A DNA stretch of 61,576 nucleotides, taken from Acidobacteriota bacterium. Lineage in GTDB: Bacteria; Acidobacteriota; Blastocatellia; Pyrinomonadales; Pyrinomonadaceae. The translations under genes were made by a program, and so were the position numbers. Within the stretch, counting starts at the first letter, position 1; every line of letters starts with the position of its first letter. Location: NCBI GenBank assembly GCA_003222895.1, contig QHXI01000120.1:1-61576 (forward strand). Reading direction: 5' to 3'. Under the pieces are notes generated by a model. The model saw nothing but the letters and a program-made list of their open reading frames with translations, was not told where the DNA came from and did not search any database. Positions 7,725-47,447 of the stretch are shown here, piece after piece.

Positions 7725-8105
7725 ATGAAAACCGTTATCTTGATCGCTCGGCTTTTACTCGGGCTGATCTTTGTTGTCTTTGGGTTGAATGGGTTCTTGA
7801 ATTTCCTCAGCATGGGACCGATGCCGACGGGATTGGCGGGTCAATTCATCGGCGCGCTCTTCCAGTCGCACTACTATTTTGTCGTAGCCGGTCTACAAAT
7901 CGTCGGCGGCCTGCTGTTGCTGGTGAACCGTTTTGTGCCGCTGGCTCTGGTGCTGCTTGGACCGGTGATCGTGAACATCCTTTTGTATCACTTGTTCCTA
8001 AATCCAGCCGGTATTGCACTGGCACTTCTCGTGACAATCCTATGGTTTATCGTCTTCTATGGCCATCGCCAATACCTCTCCGGAATTTTTGTGCAACGGG
8101 CCTGA
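7725..8105 (+). CDS. DoxX-family membrane protein
   Basis: The 126-residue protein starts at an ATG with GAAAGGAAAG upstream. It has four hydrophobic segments, near residues 5-25, 45-65, 70-90 and 95-115, including LLLGLIFVVFGLNGFLNF, typical of DoxX/DoxD-like proteins. It lies 66 bases after pirin, so it is probably cotranscribed from the marR promoter. DoxX proteins are linked to membrane redox reactions with quinones or thiosulfate. Which reaction applies here is not visible. Confidence 0.85.
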   Translation: MKTVILIARLLLGLIFVVFGLNGFLNFLSMGPMPTGLAGQFIGALFQSHYYFVVAGLQIVGGLLLLVNRFVPLALVLLGPVIVNILLYHLFLNPAGIALALLVTILWFIVFYGHRQYLSGIFVQRA

Positions 8106-8112
8106 TAAGCGA

Positions 8113-9501
8113 TCAATGATCACGGGCAACCTTGTGCGGGAGCGAGCGGCTGATGGGTGAGCGCGCTTCAAGCGCCAACTCACTCATAATCGCCACGGCG
8201 CGCTTCCGCACCTGCTCGGGGTCTTCATCGATATTCGCGAAAACTTTCAGGCGGGCTGGCCATTCAGGCCGATGGTAAAAATTCAGCATCGCGTCTGGAT
8301 TCCAGTCATCGTCAAATGAATAGACCAAACCACGAGCGACGAAACAATGTAAGTCCGGTGGTCCAGAGTCAAGGTTCGCAACAAACGCAACCGGGCGGCC
8401 CGCAGTTACTGCGTCGACGAGCACGCTCGAGTTTCCACCCAACACAATGTCCACCTGCTGAATGTCATTGGATACTGAACCGCATGAAGACAAAGTAACG
8501 CGCCCATCTCTGAGCGATTCGATCCACTTCGGCAGGCCTTTCCAAAGATTTTTCGGATGCGGCCGAATCAGGACCCGCCCAATTCTCGTCTGACTCAACA
8601 GCTCGGCCGTTAGGGTTCGCAGCCGATGTTCATTAACGTCTTTGCAAAGAAATATTCCGGCGCTCAGCGAGTATGGCAACGCTTTCGGCATCGCCGCATA
8701 ATTCTGCCGCCGTCCGTGAATCAGGACGCGACCCATTAGACAACCGTCTTCGGCATAGCTCTGATGCGCAGCCTCATTATGTACTACTGCGAGGTTGTAA
8801 CTCAGCCTGGCGACCGGACGGACAGGCATGCCATGAGTGATCAGCACAGTCGGGATCCTAAGCTTTCGCGCGGCGAGATTGAAAGCGATCCCATGCGGAT
8901 TGCTGTGATTGGACACCAGCGCAATTTTGAAATCGCCCTGTTGGAAAATTTCCGCGTAGCGCGTATGGAATCCGATGAATTCAATCACCCGAAGAACCTT
9001 GAAAAAGTGGTAGCGCCGATGCAGCCGTCGCGTGATCCTGAAAATCGCTTTGGGATTGCGGCCCTTGAGAAGCGCAAGCAAGGCGGTAGGATCCGGCAGC
9101 GGACGAAACTCGAGCTCGTGCCAATTCAAGTCGGACGATAGTGAAAGAAACGGTTCGATCGCCCGGCGCTCATTACTTAAGCGCGCAATCCAGACACCAT
9201 CTTCGCGATCCTTGATTGATCGCACCGAGAGAAAACTCCGCAGCCAACCGATGAGCGCGATAAGACCCGGAAGCGGACTGTTGCGAGTCTTCTCGATCAA
9301 TGCCGAAAGCAAACGCAGACTTCGATGTTGTGAGATTACATAGTGCGCGATGCCCTGGACGACTCCTGATTCATCACAGCGCAGCATTTCCCTAATGCCC
9401 CGACAAAGAACCCAGTCGGAATTCTTCGCTGCATCGATCTTCGCCAGAGCAGCGGCGCTCGCAGAATTCGTTGTTGATCCGAAGTTGCTCGTCGCGCTCA
9501 T
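8113..9501 (-). CDS. Surface-polysaccharide glycosyltransferase-like protein
   Basis: This 462-residue protein is the last gene of a three-gene coupled operon. The N-terminal half has no domain I can name. The middle holds IPTVLITHGMPVRPVARL and the C-terminal half holds IRPHPKNLWKG, then DIVLGGNSSVLVDAVTAGRP. This RPHP plus nucleotide-binding layout is seen in GT-B-like transferases for capsule and teichoic polymers. Upstream lies a CMP-sugar synthetase, so a CMP-activated sugar is the likely donor. Its start overlaps the previous stop by 4 bases. There is no signal peptide, so it should work at the inner face of the membrane. Confidence 0.6.
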   Translation of the reverse strand: MSATSNFGSTTNSASAAALAKIDAAKNSDWVLCRGIREMLRCDESGVVQGIAHYVISQHRSLRLLSALIEKTRNSPLPGLIALIGWLRSFLSVRSIKDREDGVWIARLSNERRAIEPFLSLSSDLNWHELEFRPLPDPTALLALLKGRNPKAIFRITRRLHRRYHFFKVLRVIEFIGFHTRYAEIFQQGDFKIALVSNHSNPHGIAFNLAARKLRIPTVLITHGMPVRPVARLSYNLAVVHNEAAHQSYAEDGCLMGRVLIHGRRQNYAAMPKALPYSLSAGIFLCKDVNEHRLRTLTAELLSQTRIGRVLIRPHPKNLWKGLPKWIESLRDGRVTLSSCGSVSNDIQQVDIVLGGNSSVLVDAVTAGRPVAFVANLDSGPPDLHCFVARGLVYSFDDDWNPDAMLNFYHRPEWPARLKVFANIDEDPEQVRKRAVAIMSELALEARSPISRSLPHKVARDH

Positions 9502-10439
9502 TGGCTTTCTCTCAACGCGTTCAAAAGGTTTTCGATCGTCGCTTCATTAACCCGTCGTCTGGCTTCGCGACTGCTATTTGCGTTGTGAGGCGCAAGCAAA
9601 CAATTCTTTAGCATGCGCAGTTCGCTGTCATTAGAGAGCGGCTCGACCTCGAACACATCGAGCGCCGCGCCGCCAATCATACCTGCAGCGAGAGCTTCGG
9701 TCAGTGCAGGCTCATCCAGCACCGGGCCGCGCGACGTATTAATCAAATAAGCCGATCGTTTCATCCGCCGAAGTTCGTCGCGGCCAATTAAATGAAACGA
9801 GGATTCATTTAGATCGCAGTGAAGTGAAACGAAGTCCGCCTGCGCGAGCAACTCATTAAGCGACATGATGGTCAGATCGCTTTCGCTAACAAATGCGGCG
9901 TCTATCGGCGCTCGATCATTGCCGAGCACCGTCATTCCAAAGCCGCGCGCGCGGCGCGCTACCGCCTTCCCGATGTTGCCGACGCCAACGATGCCGAGCG
10001 TGCACTCGCGGAGAGATGACAGCTCGGGTTTGCTCCATAAACCGCGGCGCACGGCCGCATCCATCTCGCTCAAACCGCGCGCGAAGTTAAGAAGGTAACC
10101 CAGCGTGGTGTCGGCCACGGCATCAGTGAAGGCATTCGGCGTATTGCACACTCGAATTCCGCGCCGGGCCGCGGCGTTGAGATTGATCGAATCTACGCCG
10201 GTGCCCCACTTCGAAATTACCTTTAATCGCGGCGCCGCGTTCAGCACAGCTTCCGTGAACCGATCGTCGCCGCAAATCACCCCATCGATTGTTTTCAGCA
10301 TCGGAAGCAATTCAGCTTCATTGAAACGTTCACGCACCGGCATCAGGATGATTTCAATACCGGCGGCTTCGAAACGTGGGCGAAACTCTTCGATAACCGG
10401 GAGCAGATAAGGCGCTGTAATCAATACTCGCCAGTTCAT
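9498..10439 (-). CDS. D-isomer 2-hydroxyacid dehydrogenase (SerA/PGDH-like)
   Basis: This 313-residue NAD-dependent dehydrogenase has GIVGVGNIGKAVARRARGFG (Rossmann loop), the substrate Arg in NTSRGPVLDE, the Glu in LDVFEVEPL and the His in LLAPHNANSS, the standard catalytic trio. It starts within the stop of the cytidylyltransferase gene and its own stop overlaps the next start, so the three genes are translationally coupled. In this setting it probably acts on a 2-keto or 2-hydroxy acid in making the sugar activated by the neighbouring synthetase, not in serine synthesis. That role is inference. Confidence 0.8.
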   Translation of the reverse strand: MNWRVLITAPYLLPVIEEFRPRFEAAGIEIILMPVRERFNEAELLPMLKTIDGVICGDDRFTEAVLNAAPRLKVISKWGTGVDSINLNAAARRGIRVCNTPNAFTDAVADTTLGYLLNFARGLSEMDAAVRRGLWSKPELSSLRECTLGIVGVGNIGKAVARRARGFGMTVLGNDRAPIDAAFVSESDLTIMSLNELLAQADFVSLHCDLNESSFHLIGRDELRRMKRSAYLINTSRGPVLDEPALTEALAAGMIGGAALDVFEVEPLSNDSELRMLKNCLLAPHNANSSREARRRVNEATIENLLNALRESQ

Positions 10440-11221
10440 GTCGATCCCGTGCGAGCAACGCGCTCGTGGTATTTGAGAATCAACGGATCGTGTTTCATCG
10501 CCGCCTCAACGAAACTCAAATCTTCCGGGGTATCGACTGAATGAGTTTCGGTTTCAGTTGGGACCATGCGCACGCATCTGCCGTGTTCGAGCACACGCAG
10601 CATGTCGATTGATTCGACCTGCTCGAGCGGAGTTGGCGCGAGTCGAGCGAATTCGCACAGAAAGTCGCGGCGGAATGGAATCACGCAAACCTGCTTGAAA
10701 ACTGAAAGGCGATCAAGCTGCGCGGCCTCCAGCTCTGGAATCGGCGCCCGCGAAAAGGAAAGCGCATCATTTGTTTCATTCATCACAACTTTGATCGTGT
10801 TTGGATCGAGATACTCATCGCGACTCGTGATCCGATGCGCGAGATTTACGCACTGGATCGATCTATCGTCAAGCATGGGCGCGATCGCCGCCGAAATCAT
10901 CTCCGGTGTGACCATTGGCTCGTCGCCCTGGACCATCACGACGATGTCGGCTTGAATCTGTGCGGCGGCTTCGGCCACTCGATCCGTCGCGCGCTCGTGC
11001 GCCGCTGAGGTCATGATCACGCGTCCGCCGAAGTCTTCCACTGCTGCTTTGATTTCTTCGTCGCAGGTGGCGACCCAAACTTCGTCCACTTCCTGACACA
11101 TCGACGTCCGTCGAAACACATGCTCGATCATGGGTCGATTAAGCAGCGATGCGAGCGGCTTTCCCGGAAAACGCGACGATCCCATGCGTGCGGGAATTAT
11201 CGCGATGATGCGCTCCGTCAT
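10436..11221 (-). CDS. kdsB: CMP-Kdo synthetase-like cytidylyltransferase
   Basis: The start is the ATG at 11221 (MTERIIAIIPARMGSSRFPG). The longer frame upstream overlaps the divergent radical SAM gene and is not used. The 261-residue protein shows the family hallmarks: IIPARMGSSRFPGKPL for CTP binding, MVQGDEP for the metal site, and ALSFSRAPIP. It matches 3-deoxy-manno-octulosonate cytidylyltransferase, which activates Kdo for lipid A and core synthesis. Here it leads an operon with a hydroxyacid dehydrogenase and a glycosyltransferase, so it could be a paralogue for a related keto-sugar acid rather than the housekeeping KdsB. Confidence 0.8.
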   Translation of the reverse strand: MTERIIAIIPARMGSSRFPGKPLASLLNRPMIEHVFRRTSMCQEVDEVWVATCDEEIKAAVEDFGGRVIMTSAAHERATDRVAEAAAQIQADIVVMVQGDEPMVTPEMISAAIAPMLDDRSIQCVNLAHRITSRDEYLDPNTIKVVMNETNDALSFSRAPIPELEAAQLDRLSVFKQVCVIPFRRDFLCEFARLAPTPLEQVESIDMLRVLEHGRCVRMVPTETETHSVDTPEDLSFVEAAMKHDPLILKYHERVARTGST

Positions 11222-11293
11222 ATTTGATCTGTCGGAATCTGCGGAAACGGGCGTAGAATAACGCCACCCGTCGGGTTTTAGAAGTGAAACGCG

Positions 11294-13534
11294 GTGCTCG
11301 AAAAGTCGATGCACACCTCCACAAAATATTTCGAGAAAGCGCTCGCCATCGCGGCCAACGGCGCCTGGTTCGTTTTCAAGCGCGTCAATAACGTTTGGCC
11401 AAACCAATCGTTCACGCCAACCTGGTCCGATAGACCCTTATTGAAATCGTGGGAAAAGACAAAGCCGCCCCTGGGTTGGCCGCGCCAGACAGATTCGCTT
11501 TGCCCTGTCTGTGTGCGCGAAGCGCGTGAGGAAATTCTCGGCGGGAAGAAAGATCTAAGCGTGCTGCTAAACGATAGCGTGGGCGAGATCAAAGCCACTA
11601 TTCTCGAACGCGACGGCAAAATCCTCATGGTCAAAGATTGCCCAACGCACGGTCATTTCGAGGACGTCATGTCGATCGATCCGGAGTTCTTTCGACATCT
11701 CGAAGAAGTCTTTCCGGGACGAGACATCCGCGCCCATCGCGACGAAGCACTTCACAATCACGGCAATAGTTCAATTCAGTATGGCCGCGGCGCGGTTTTG
11801 ACGATCGACCTTACGAATCGCTGCAACATGATGTGCGATCCGTGCTTCATGGACGCAAATCAGATTGGCTTCGTCCATGAACTGAATTGGGAAGAGATTA
11901 AGCAGTTGCTCGACAATGCAATTTCGATCCGGCCGCGCCGCCAGCTTTCTGTGCAGTTCTCCGGCGGCGAGCCAACATTATCGCCACATTTCCTTGACGC
12001 CGTTCGCTACGCGCGCAAGGTTGGATACGAAGTCGTGCAGGTCGCCACCAATGGGATTGAATTCGCCAAGCGCCCCGAGTTTGCCAGGTCCGCGGCCGAA
12101 GCAGGTCTTCGTTATGCCTATCTGCAGTTCGACGGCGTTGGTAATGGTCCCAATTCGCATCGCGGCGTGGGAAACCTTTTCGATGTGAAGCTGCAGGCAA
12201 TTGAAAATCTCTTCAACGCCGGCGTCAGCATCGTTCCGGTCATTACCATCGTCAATGGCGTGAATAATGAACAAGTGGGCCGCGTGATCCGGTTTGCCCT
12301 CGACAACCCGAAGAAGATTGTTTTTCTTTCCTTCCAACCGGTTTCTTTCACAGGCCGCGACGAAGAAATTTCCGACGAGCGCCGGCAGGCGCAACGTTAC
12401 ACCTTGTCGCACTTGGCTCACGACGTGAAACGTCAGACCGGCCTCGGCGAGCCGGTGCGCGATTGGTTTCCAATTTCATTCATGTCCACGTTTTCGGATT
12501 GGGGCGATCTTGTTCGGGGACCAGAGTCGCAGTGGGGCCAGCTTGCCTGCGGCTGCCATCCGAATTGTGGAACCGGCATAGCATTGATCATCGACAAGTT
12601 CACCGGCGAGGCAGCGCCGATGACCGCGTTTCTTCGCGCAGAGAGATTCGCGAAAGATCTTGCTCATGTGAATGACGCGGCGCGCGGTCCGATGCTTTCA
12701 ATTTTGGGCATGACGCTGGCTCTGCTCCGTAATTACGATCCGTTCATGTCGCCGACGCACTTTCGGCTAATCGATCTGCTCAGGAAGTTCGGCAAGAAAT
12801 TCGGTGTCGGCGCGCGCCGAACCTCCCTCGGAAAACAACGAGCCGAGACGCTTGCCGAAGCAGTCAGGCGACGGCGCACAGATCGTTGGAACTTCCTCTT
12901 CATCGCCGGCATGTGGTTTCAGGATCTATTCAATTACGATTTTCGCCGCACTGAAATGTGCATCATCCCTTACGCGACGCAAGAGGGAGAGATTTCGTTC
13001 TGTGCCTACAACACCGGTGTCGGCTGGCGCCAAATCGTTGAAAAAATGCACATGACGGCCACCCTGATGAAATGGCACGAGGAACACGGGCGTCATGAAA
13101 TTTTTGCGGGCGGGAAGAGCGTGCCGCTTCCACCGATTCAGCATTCTTTGGTGCTCGATCCGGACGCGATCGCCACGCCGGCGCAGATGGATCTCGATTC
13201 CGCGAGCATTCCCAGGACTGCGCGAGAGGAAAAGTTCTTCGCTGCCAGCCGCGATCGCGAGTTAAAGCGGCAGGCAGTCACTCTCTCGACTATTGAGGAC
13301 GAAACCTATCATCTGGAAATGGCGCGGCTCTATCGCCAGCATGTGCTCGGCGAAAAGCCAACGATCCAGATTCAACCGCTAAGACGCACAACCAAAGCGG
13401 AGCGCCGACTCGAAAAGATTACCTCGCGCCAATCCAGCCGCGATGAACAAGATCATCCGCGGATTTCCGCAATTCGCCGATCGAGGAATCGCCGCTCGCT
13501 TTCGTTAGTCGCTAACATCAGCGCACGTTCATAG
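11294..13534 (+). CDS. Radical SAM protein of the Tes/MJ0619 type (possible membrane-spanning lipid synthase)
   Basis: Of about 746 residues, this starts at GTG 11294 or, in frame, ATG 11309. It begins with a zinc or rubredoxin-like site (CPVC at 70-73, DCPTHG at 115-120), typical of the MJ0619 group. The radical SAM motif is CNMMCDPC (C177, C181, C184), followed by the FSGGEPT loop at 222-228. Extra cysteines for auxiliary clusters are CGCHPNC (419-425), C556 and C570. Members of this group include tetraether synthase, which couples lipid tails through C-C bonds, and acidobacterial relatives linked to iso-diabolic acid. It is divergent from the kdsB operon, and the last 80 bases overlap the sigma factor gene tail to tail. 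Confidence 0.7.
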
Positions 13535-14784
13535 CTCTTCATCGCTTCATTCGAATCTCCCAATCGACGATAGAGATCCGCGCGCGTTGCATGCAGAAGA
13601 TGATACTGGTCAAGGCAGCCTGACGATTCCAATTCGTCAACGATCGGCAGGGCCTTCTCTGGTCCGTCGGCCATCGACACGGCCACGGCGCGATTTAGTG
13701 CCACGATGGGCGAAGGCTGAATGCGCTCGAGCCAATCATAGAGAGAAACGATTCGTTGCCAGTCGGTTTCTTCGGCGCTGGCCGCGCGACAGTGTTGCGC
13801 AGCGATTGCAGCTTGTAACGCAAATGGCCCAGGCGCCCGGCGCATCGATTCCGCGACGAGCGGCAACGCTTCCGCGATCTGTTTCCGATCCCATTTCGTC
13901 CGATCCTGGTCCTCGAGGGTGATCAGATCACCCGCGTCGTTAACCCGAGCCTCGCGCCGCGAATCGTGCAACAGGATCAGCGCAAGCAAGGCCGTCGCCT
14001 CTTCGGGCGGATAAGGCGCCATCAACACGCGCACGATCCGCGCCAGGCGAATCGCTTCTGAACATAGATCAGTGCGGACCAAATCTTCACCACGCGTTGA
14101 CGCATAGCCTTCGTTGAAGATCAGATAAATGACCGTCAACACAGCATCCATTCGCTCCGGCAACTGGTGTGAATCAGGGACTCTGTAGGGAATGCCGGCG
14201 TCGCGAATCTTTCGCTTGGCGCGCACCAGGCGTTGGGCCATCGTCGCGTTCGGCACCAGAAACGCGCGCGCAATTTCATCTGTCTCTAGTCCGCAAAGCG
14301 TTCGCAGCGTCAAAGCAACTTGTGATTCAGGCGCCAGCGCCGGGTGACAACAGGTGAAGATCAGACGCAACCGATCGTCAGGAATTTCATCCGTCCCGAT
14401 CTCAGGCTGTTCGGTTGTCGTCGGTATTTCGTATGCGTAGGATTCGACCTTCTCGTGAAAATTCTTTTGGCGGCGAATGCGATCGATCGCTTTGTGTCGC
14501 GCGGTTTGAATAATCCACGCAGCGGGCGAGTCAGGGATGCCTTGAATCCGCCATTGATCGACTGCGGCCGCGAAAGCTTCCTGCGCAGATTCCTCCGCCA
14601 AATCGAAATCACCGAATGAACGGATCAGCGTGGCCACAATGCGGCCCCAATCTGAGCTGTAGACCGCATCAACGGCTGTGTTCGCATTCAAAGGCACGAA
14701 GCATGGTAAAAAGTTTTTGACTAACTGTCGATTCGTCGCCTCGTCATTCGACTTACCGATGGAGAGGGCATTAACCTGCCACAA
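13453..14784 (-). CDS. ECF42-type RNA polymerase sigma factor with C-terminal TPR-like domain
   Basis: This is a 443-residue protein. Sigma region 2 includes [19 protein letters not shown] and [18 protein letters not shown]. Region 4 includes [20 protein letters not shown], followed by the [18 protein letters not shown] recognition helix. The long C-terminal half (about 190-443) is the extra domain of this sigma group, ending in TPR-like helices ([20 protein letters not shown]). ECF42 sigmas have no classical anti-sigma factor and use this domain for control. Two DGPF/YCII proteins lie divergently 31 bases away, the known partner genes and likely targets. Confidence 0.85.
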
Positions 14785-14815
14785 GCAAGGCCGCGGCTAG
14801 TTCTTAGGAGCAAAT

Positions 14816-15172
14816 ATGAAATACATGCTACTCGTTTATATGGACGAACAGGCGATGACCGACGAAGAGCGCGAGCATTGCTATGTCGAATCCGCCCAGC
14901 TCACGCAGGATCTTAATGCGAGAGGTCAGTACCTCGGCGCGGGGCCGCTGCATTCAGTTTCGAGCGCGACCAGCGTACGCGTGCGCGACGACAGGCGGCT
15001 GGTGACCGATGGCCCATTCGCGGAAACACGCGAACAACTCGGCGGCTATTACGTGATTGAAGCAAAGGATCTCGATGAAGCGATCGAGATCGCCGAGCGC
15101 GTTCCGCCAGTGCGATACGGCACGATCGAAATTCGTCCGGTTATGGAGATTCCAGGCTTGCCGGAAAATTGA
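14816..15172 (+). CDS. YCII-related DGPF-domain protein
   Basis: The 118-residue protein has the start MKYMLLVYMDEQAMTDEE and the signature VTDGPFAETREQLGGYYVIE. The ATG has TTAGGAG upstream. It adopts the alpha+beta barrel fold of YciI-like proteins. The biochemical role is not settled, and the link to ECF42 sigma factors is the strongest clue to function. It is 31 bases from the divergent sigma gene, leaving room for only one compact promoter region. Confidence 0.88.
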   Translation: MKYMLLVYMDEQAMTDEEREHCYVESAQLTQDLNARGQYLGAGPLHSVSSATSVRVRDDRRLVTDGPFAETREQLGGYYVIEAKDLDEAIEIAERVPPVRYGTIEIRPVMEIPGLPEN

Positions 15173-15173
15173 G

Positions 15174-15298
15174 TGTCAGAAACAAGTGGCGGGTCAGTAC
15201 CGGGAGCGGTAGCGACCGGATCACGGCGTTTCCAAAGCAAGAGGTGTTTTTCTAACGCAATTATTGGATCCATCGCTATCGCTCCGGGTACTGACACG
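15174..15298. repeat. Long inverted repeat between the two DGPF genes
   Basis: The left arm includes GTCAGTACCGGGAGCGGTAG and continues CGACCGGATC. The right arm includes CATCGCTATCGCTCCGGGTA and ends in CTGACA. Related copies lie at 55245-55337 and, more diverged, at 1065-1175. It sits between two genes on the same strand and may act as an RNA hairpin in the transcript. Confidence 0.7.
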
Positions 15299-15331
15299 AC
15301 GCAAACCCAAATTCAAACAGGAGAAACGAAG

Positions 15332-15754
15332 ATGCGATTCATGGTGATTGTTAAAGCCGATAAAAATTCCGAAGCGGGTGTCATGCCTGGTCAGCAGTTG
15401 CTCGCCGACATGGGAAATTTCAATCAGCAATTGGCGGACGCCGGCGTAATGCTGGCGGGCGAAGGTCTTCATCCCAGCAGCAAGGGTGCGCGGGTGAAGT
15501 TTTCGGGCGGACAAAAATCGGTCATCGATGGCCCATTCGCCGAAACGAAGGAGTTGGTCGCCGGATTTTGGTTGTGGAAGTGCAAGTCGCTCGCTGAAGC
15601 GATCGATTGGCTGAAGCGCGCGCCCTTTGAAGAGACTGAAGTCGAGATTCGCCAAGTGTTCGAAGCGGAAGACTTCGGCGCTGAATTCACTCCCGAGTTG
15701 CGAGAGCAGGAAGCGCGCATTCGTTCAAAGATCGAAACGCAAACCGCAGGCTGA
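15332..15754 (+). CDS. YCII-related DGPF-domain protein, second copy
   Basis: The start is the ATG at 15332 with AGGAGAAACGAAG upstream. The longer upstream frame is the repeat and is not used. The 140-residue protein starts MRFMVIVKADKNSEAGVMPG and has VIDGPFAETKELVAGFWLWK, the DGPF signature. The C-terminal half continues with helical sequence ending SKIETQTAG. It is the second protein of this family next to the ECF42 sigma factor and is probably in the same regulon. Confidence 0.88.
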   Translation: MRFMVIVKADKNSEAGVMPGQQLLADMGNFNQQLADAGVMLAGEGLHPSSKGARVKFSGGQKSVIDGPFAETKELVAGFWLWKCKSLAEAIDWLKRAPFEETEVEIRQVFEAEDFGAEFTPELREQEARIRSKIETQTAG

Positions 15755-47373: not shown

Positions 47374-47447
47374 GTGTCAAAAGCCCGACCGTAAGGGAGG
47401 GCCAGTTTATATAGAGGCCGTTGCTGACGCGCGGGCTTCTGACACCG
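47374..47447. repeat. Inverted repeat of the GTCAGAAGCCCG family overlapping the kinase 3' end
   Basis: The left arm is CGTGTCAAAAGCCCGACCGT and the right arm is CGCGCGGGCTTCTGACACCG. It is the same family as 3257-3352. The kinase stop (47407) and its last dozen codons lie in the right half, encoding VSEARASATASI. Confidence 0.75.

Follow-up and report, generated by a model that had tools for sequence, protein, structure and literature searches.

A sister family of tetraether synthase in Acidobacteriota as a candidate for the making of membrane-spanning lipids

We have identified a radical SAM protein of a soil-dwelling Acidobacteriota bacterium (Pyrinomonadaceae) that, judged by sequence, belongs to a Tes-like sister family and is not tetraether synthase (Tes) itself. 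The gene lies in a 61,576-nucleotide contig (QHXI01000120.1, assembly GCA_003222895.1), referred to here as the window. By analogy with Tes, we propose (probability about 0.6) that this Acidobacteriota-centred family couples iso-C15 lipid tails, with a copy on contig C59 as the general enzyme and the window copy as a laterally gained extra.

Gene, predicted fold and metal sites

The open reading frame at 11294-13534 on the plus strand begins with GTG and encodes 746 amino acids. ATG at 11309 appears the likelier start, because the N-termini of homologues resemble MHKPIKYVEK; the resulting 741-residue protein (11309-13534) provides the numbering used below unless otherwise noted. The last 82 bases of the frame (13453-13534) overlap a convergent sigma-factor frame, and model confidence is low there. 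A search for promoter-like sites from 11100 to 13700 gave none. The top NCBIfam model for the protein is the Tes equivalog (NF045702; 305.9 bits, E 4e-91), although the score falls under the curated cut-off of 450 bits. The closest solved structure by sequence is GDGT-MAS, the Tes of Methanocaldococcus jannaschii (MJ0619, hereafter MJ Tes; PDB 7TOL, E 4e-62; E 1e-76 in a profile search). Matches so far beyond chance establish that the frame singled out in a preliminary description is real. The runner-up in NCBIfam is the TrsS radical SAM (seleno)protein (NF045646), which scores 208 bits against a cut-off of 490 and has its best stretch over residues 98-383 only. Pfam recognizes a radical SAM domain and an HMPTM zinc ribbon (51.8 bits).

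Contamination was ruled out because a 12 kb stretch of the contig aligns with the DNA of genus members in blocks of more than 1 kb, at up to 86% identity. Elsewhere in the window are two dispersed repeats: one of about 72 bases (47374-47445) with many copies in genus genomes at ~80-88% identity, and one of about 34 bases (15190-15223) with dozens of copies across genus genomes, mostly 90-100% identical.

An AlphaFold2 model was generated from 65 sequences (mean pLDDT 87.7, pTM 0.85; the last 37 residues have pLDDT <50). Foldseek ranked 7tom and 7tol first. Using VIA-align, the model was superposed on 7tom and 7tol with Z scores of 43.8 and 39.6, rmsd of 2.2 and 2.3, and 474 and 471 aligned residues, respectively, at 32% identity. 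The next radical SAM fold was MoaA, at Z 20.7 over 272 residues; that other folds are missing from the result list has no meaning by itself. The predicted model has the Tes fold, and a fold is no proof of function. Outside the part aligned with 7TOM is an N-terminal helix (residues 4-27; 11318-11389, plus strand) with a modest hydrophobic moment (0.27-0.38), which could possibly contact the membrane.

Metal sites were mapped in 62 distinct family rows and eight bacterial Tes-proper rows, leaving out L001-L003, L009 and two duplicates. Counts of CPxC and of extra cysteines were taken from a separate set of 64 rows that includes one mis-sorted row. The published ligands of MJ Tes are a rubredoxin motif (C9x2C12x20C33x2H36), an N-terminal cluster bound by C73, C77, C80 and a histidine, a radical SAM CX3CX2C motif, and Met439 as a labile ligand on the C-terminal cluster (PMC9433317). 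Mapping of these ligands (PMC9433317) places a rubredoxin-type iron site, C65-x2-C68 ... C111-x2-H114, at 11501-11650 (plus strand, as are all sites in the protein), with a gap of 42 residues compared with 20 in MJ Tes. Its C111 (MJ C33) is kept in 62/62 rows and H114 (MJ H36) in 61/62, and CPxC occurs in all 64 rows of the second set, the mis-sorted one included. The radical SAM motif C172-x3-C176-x2-C179 (11822-11845), located by Pfam and row mapping, retains its three cysteines in every one of the 62 family rows. The SAM/5'-dA loop QPVSFTGR (12335-12358) is identical to the MJ Tes loop Q268-R275. Positions Q268, R275, C338, M439, C455 and C470 (MJ numbering) are likewise kept in 62/62. At the C-terminal auxiliary cluster site (12911-13003; 62/62 rows), M535, C551 and C565 correspond to M439, C455 and C470, and C420 of the motif C414-x-C416-x3-C420 (12548-12568) aligns with MJ C338. 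Their conservation suggests that C338, C455 and C470 are ligands of the C-terminal cluster.

Several features set the protein apart from Tes. The stretch that matches the N-terminal auxiliary cluster (11747-11770) has A, H and S in place of C73, C77 and C80. These cysteines are kept in none of the 62 family rows, compared with 8/8 Tes-proper rows, and the family has H at 77 and S at 80 throughout; by alignment, the cluster is lost across the family rows examined. R210, a 5'-dA binder in Tes, is R in 5/62 family rows versus 8/8 Tes-proper rows. C414 and C416 (C419 and C421 in the 746-residue numbering) are extra conserved cysteines of the family, present in 63/64 and 64/64 rows with one row mis-sorted. 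The window protein also has additional N- and C-terminal parts. The CPVC, DCPTHG and CX3CX2C sites named in the preliminary description were thus found where it placed them. Of its "extra cysteine clusters", the C-terminal one was recovered, but the N-terminal auxiliary ligands are missing. Its assignment to the MJ0619/Tes type holds for the type and for the predicted fold, but is not supported for Tes itself, given the score below the cut-off, the missing cluster and the separate branch described next.

A phylogeny with Tes and bacterial homologues, which had been suggested as a check, was inferred with IQ-TREE from 66 rows, including six bacterial Tes-proper rows and MJ Tes as the single archaeal row on a very long branch. 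The family splits from Tes-proper plus MJ Tes at 100/100; the deep branching order is uncertain owing to long branches, chiefly that of MJ Tes. The bacterial Tes-proper of Acidobacteriota (8 rows, e.g. L039:11837-13489 and L047:5820-7439) belongs to the same superfamily as the window protein, but keeps the N-terminal cluster, is 33-36% identical to the window protein (six rows aligned) and forms a separate branch. In two genomes (G121 and G073; loci L039 and L040), a Tes-proper gene and a Tes-like family gene share a strand and are separated by 3.4 and 5.6 kb, and the genes between them suggested no pathway on reading. In another genome (G006; L047:1196-7439), Tes-proper lies beside kdsA, kdsB, kdsC and a gene resembling archaetidylinositol-phosphate synthase (151.6 bits, below the cut-off of 180).

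Three copies and an accessory stretch

The genome (4.77 Mb, 96.4% complete) carries three family members, one each on contigs C59, C133 and C14; the window is C14. The window protein shares 64% identity with the C59 copy and 51% with the C133 copy. In the IQ-TREE phylogeny, the window copy pairs with a copy from genome G349 (100/100), inside a group of seven rows that includes one from family f19 (98/87) and, beyond that, a clade of 27 (100/100). The C59 copy groups with rows of its own class, and the C133 copy falls in a third branch. A fast tree without the G349 copy put the window copy in the same broad place. Recent duplication within the genome was considered and ruled out, as the window copy joins the G349 copy (100/100) away from the C59 copy of its own genome. 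Between the window and G349 copies, dN is 0.119 over 581 codons; dS was not computable, as with saturated silent sites. Among seven genus genomes, the window type occurs only in this one. The six others, one of which is only 79% complete, give matches of 65-66% (C59 type) and 47-52% (C133 type).

The window copy is a third, accessory copy, not the main one of the genome, and was probably gained laterally; the conserved C59 copy is the likely general enzyme. The preliminary description had offered the window gene as a candidate for tail coupling. The broad idea survives as a hypothesis, but with the window type in one of seven genus genomes the C59 copy is the better candidate for the general role.

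The window gene is part of an accessory stretch of four genes (8113-13534); the window-type gene is absent from the six other genus genomes. Its divergent neighbour encodes KdsB2, a second KdsB-like CMP-Kdo synthetase (10436-11221, minus strand) that is 38% identical to the other copy in the genome, on contig C60. Also in the KdsB2 operon are a 2-hydroxyacid / phosphoglycerate dehydrogenase-like gene (9498-10439, minus strand) and a gene for an uncharacterised 462-residue protein (8113-9501, minus strand) that has no Pfam or NCBIfam match and, on reading, is perhaps a glycosyltransferase. Four genus genomes share the right flank (13453-15754), which carries sigma factor and YCII genes. The operon side (8100-11400) had no substantial DNA match among the genus rows listed. 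In four genus genomes, the surroundings of the sigma gene held neither pirin nor DoxX, the genes that lie to the left here, and neither a left border nor an empty site was seen.

The 462-residue protein occurs in 7/147 genomes of its own class (Blastocatellia), all of one family, and in the six others all three operon genes occur together. Two of the seven have an intact window-type gene next to the operon: this genome and G349, where it is at the opposite operon end and 78% identical. Broken window-type remnants lie beside the operon in a third (G075; L217:8393-8871). In the other four, there is no window-type gene beside the operon or elsewhere, and the best matches are 63-66%. Outside its own family, the best relatives of KdsB2 in a sample of 119 genomes are in f27, f48, f32, f19 and f35, which are families of the class of genome G125; window gene and KdsB2 operon may therefore share a source. 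At 0.553, the GC content of the stretch does not stand out from the values across the window (mean 0.543, sd 0.011) and so does not support transfer.

Distribution and the lipid record

Genomes were counted with one profile at E<=1e-60, which also picks up Tes-proper at about 1e-125 or weaker. A match was found in 137/247 genomes of the phylum sample and in 139/147 genomes of Blastocatellia (97/99 of high quality). The class of G217, taken as Terriglobia because the G217 gene sits with that of Granulicella aggregans (L105) in the fast tree, gave 240/250 (high quality 199/203). The class of G125, tentatively subdivision 6 and Luteitalea pratensis-like, gave 125/193 (high quality 85/119). The class of G027, probably Holophagae, gave no match in 93 genomes, 60 of them of high quality, the other classes serving as positive control. 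The best match was weaker than 1e-130, indicating Tes-proper or a fragment, in 20/137 genomes of the phylum sample, 1/139 of Blastocatellia, 4/240 of the G217 class and 4/125 of the G125 class; each of the five inspected among the 20 proved to be Tes-proper.

Scanning named genomes for the motif gave at least 116 stretches; among those listed, 107 were from Acidobacteriota, seven from Myxococcota, one from Latescibacterota and one from a genome labelled Bordetella. This last (L148, labelled Bordetella parapertussis) is a metagenome bin; the tree places its gene with those of Bryobacterales, and we doubt the label. We also doubt that of L156 ('Holophagales'), as its gene sits in the fast tree with that of G176, a genome outside the Holophagae-like set of 93.

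In a survey of 46 acidobacterial strains, subdivisions 8, 10 and 23 were reportedly the negative ones. Across the seven subdivisions that it covered, the survey records iso-diabolic acid in subdivisions 1, 3, 4 and 6 (PMC13274423). Reported makers include Pyrinomonas (PMC4644332) and Edaphobacter (PMC11354219), and in Chloracidobacterium validum iso-diabolic acid is among the primary fatty acids (PMC12816986). The last species belongs to Blastocatellia, in keeping with the earlier remark that this class is known for the lipid. In the genome assigned to it (G096), just one of seven candidates, all of them scored, matches at E<=1e-60, and the gene (L072) is placed within the core clade of Blastocatellia. 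A single match is found in many strains, so a clean knock-out looks possible. The distribution of the family follows the published iso-diabolic acid map, as a correlation at class level with few independent events and two tentative class names.

Proposed working and alternatives

The protein most likely works like Tes. By analogy, the radical SAM cluster would generate a 5'-deoxyadenosyl radical that abstracts hydrogen from the methyl group at the end of an iso-branched lipid tail (iso-C15), whose terminus is described as the same as that of phytanyl (PMC8941075). The C-terminal [4Fe-4S] cluster would hold the tail as a carbon-sulfur adduct until a second radical event on another tail allowed an end-to-end join, giving membrane-spanning chains of the iso-diabolic acid type. 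The family would dispense with the N-terminal auxiliary cluster of Tes. The window copy, tied to the KdsB-like operon, would perhaps serve a special envelope lipid.

Coupling is favoured by GDGT-MAS as the closest solved structure both by sequence and by predicted fold, by the invariance (62/62) of the radical SAM and C-terminal cluster positions, and by a distribution that matches the lipid map. Against it stand the score below the Tes cut-off, the missing N-terminal cluster, the variable R210 and the extra C414 and C416. In addition, the counting profile also takes Tes-proper, at least seven motif-scan loci are from Myxococcota, and Solibacter usitatus, with two Tes homologues, is reported to make brGDGTs without detectable iso-diabolic acid (PMC10087280). 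A tail-coupling enzyme reported to produce such lipids elsewhere, the bacterial membrane-spanning lipid synthase Mss, is described as having the catalytic architecture of Tes in models (PMC13274423).

The neighbourhood of the C133-type paralogue (paralogue 2) raises another reading. Among loci cleared of duplicates that have 2.5 kb or more on either side, and above a score floor that removes Tes-proper loci such as L043 and L047, lpxD, lpxA or lpxB lies within 6 kb of paralogue 2 in 17/28 loci, compared with 0/36 for the core type (Fisher p 1.6e-8, overstated because the loci are kin). In the genome studied here, paralogue 2 (C133; L076:5981-9268) is divergent from and adjoins lpxD. The lpxD, lpxA and lpxB neighbours recur in two families (f1 and f31), with a heptose kinase in f31, and the LpxD, LpxA, LpxB and heptose kinase members tested pass their NCBIfam cut-offs. 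Among paralogue-2 loci fetched from f31, lpxD is 13-337 bp away in 8/8. Among 20 loci fetched blind to neighbours, lpxD is present in ten; six of genus g2 are without it. We found no paper joining lpxD and tetraether among the open-licence papers searched, and the apparent linkage of a Tes-like paralogue to LPS genes is a new lead. The family might accordingly couple or modify the acyl tails of lipid A instead of, or besides, those of glycerophospholipids, with paralogue 2 acting alongside LpxD/LpxA/LpxB and the window copy, which adjoins KdsB2, on a Kdo-type glycolipid. Acidobacterial iso-diabolic acid is reported to be freed only by direct acid hydrolysis of cells and not by Bligh-Dyer extraction, which its authors read as a sign of large, very polar head groups (PMC5462960). 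We nonetheless consider this role of the family unlikely: 11 of the 28 paralogue-2 loci, including all six fetched from g2, are without lpx genes, lpx linkage is seen at none of the core-type loci, glycerol-based iso-diabolic tetraesters have been reported from Koribacter (PMC13274423), and an intact window-type gene lies beside the KdsB2 operon in only two of seven genomes. A bolder version, to which we give slightly less credence still, is that Tes-like enzymes (paralogue 2 and, perhaps, the window copy with its Kdo link) fuse the acyl tails of lipid A with opposing ones, which would produce an outer membrane with covalently spanning LPS; such fusion would explain the solvent resistance of acidobacterial iso-diabolic acid.

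A different radical reaction on lipid tails, such as thiolation, desaturation or an internal cross-link in a single lipid like that of macrocyclic archaeol, is improbable to a further degree. The products of Tes itself include macrocyclic archaeol and a sulfur-bearing lipid (PMC9433317), and the extra cysteines, missing cluster and variable R210 could shift the outcome, but the positions linked with coupling, those of the radical SAM and C-terminal clusters, are conserved. We think it very unlikely that the substrate is not a lipid at all, be it a peptide, a cofactor, or a pterin for methylation, the first-named role of MJ0619. The HMPTM zinc ribbon and the rank of TrsS as second-best model would fit such a substrate; however, in the light of its crystal structure MJ0619 is unlikely to act on pterin (PMC9433317), and GDGT-MAS aligns over far more of the protein than the next radical SAM fold does (474 versus 272 residues).

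A role of bacterial Tes homologues in membrane-spanning lipids has already been proposed in print and is not new here. Zeng et al. (2022) listed 456 such homologues, one of them in Edaphobacter aggregans at 32% identity, and proposed a role in brGDGTs (PMC8941075). Halamka et al. proposed the same for the S. usitatus homologues (PMC10087280), and a paper of 2025 treats the activity of such bacterial homologues as unconfirmed (PMC11868695). The present analysis narrows the candidates to one Tes sister family, near-universal in two classes where iso-diabolic acid is found. Widely used climate proxies rest on iso-diabolic acid and brGDGT lipids, and its close resemblance to the archaeal tail-coupling enzyme makes this family a strong candidate for the making of membrane-spanning lipids in many Acidobacteria.
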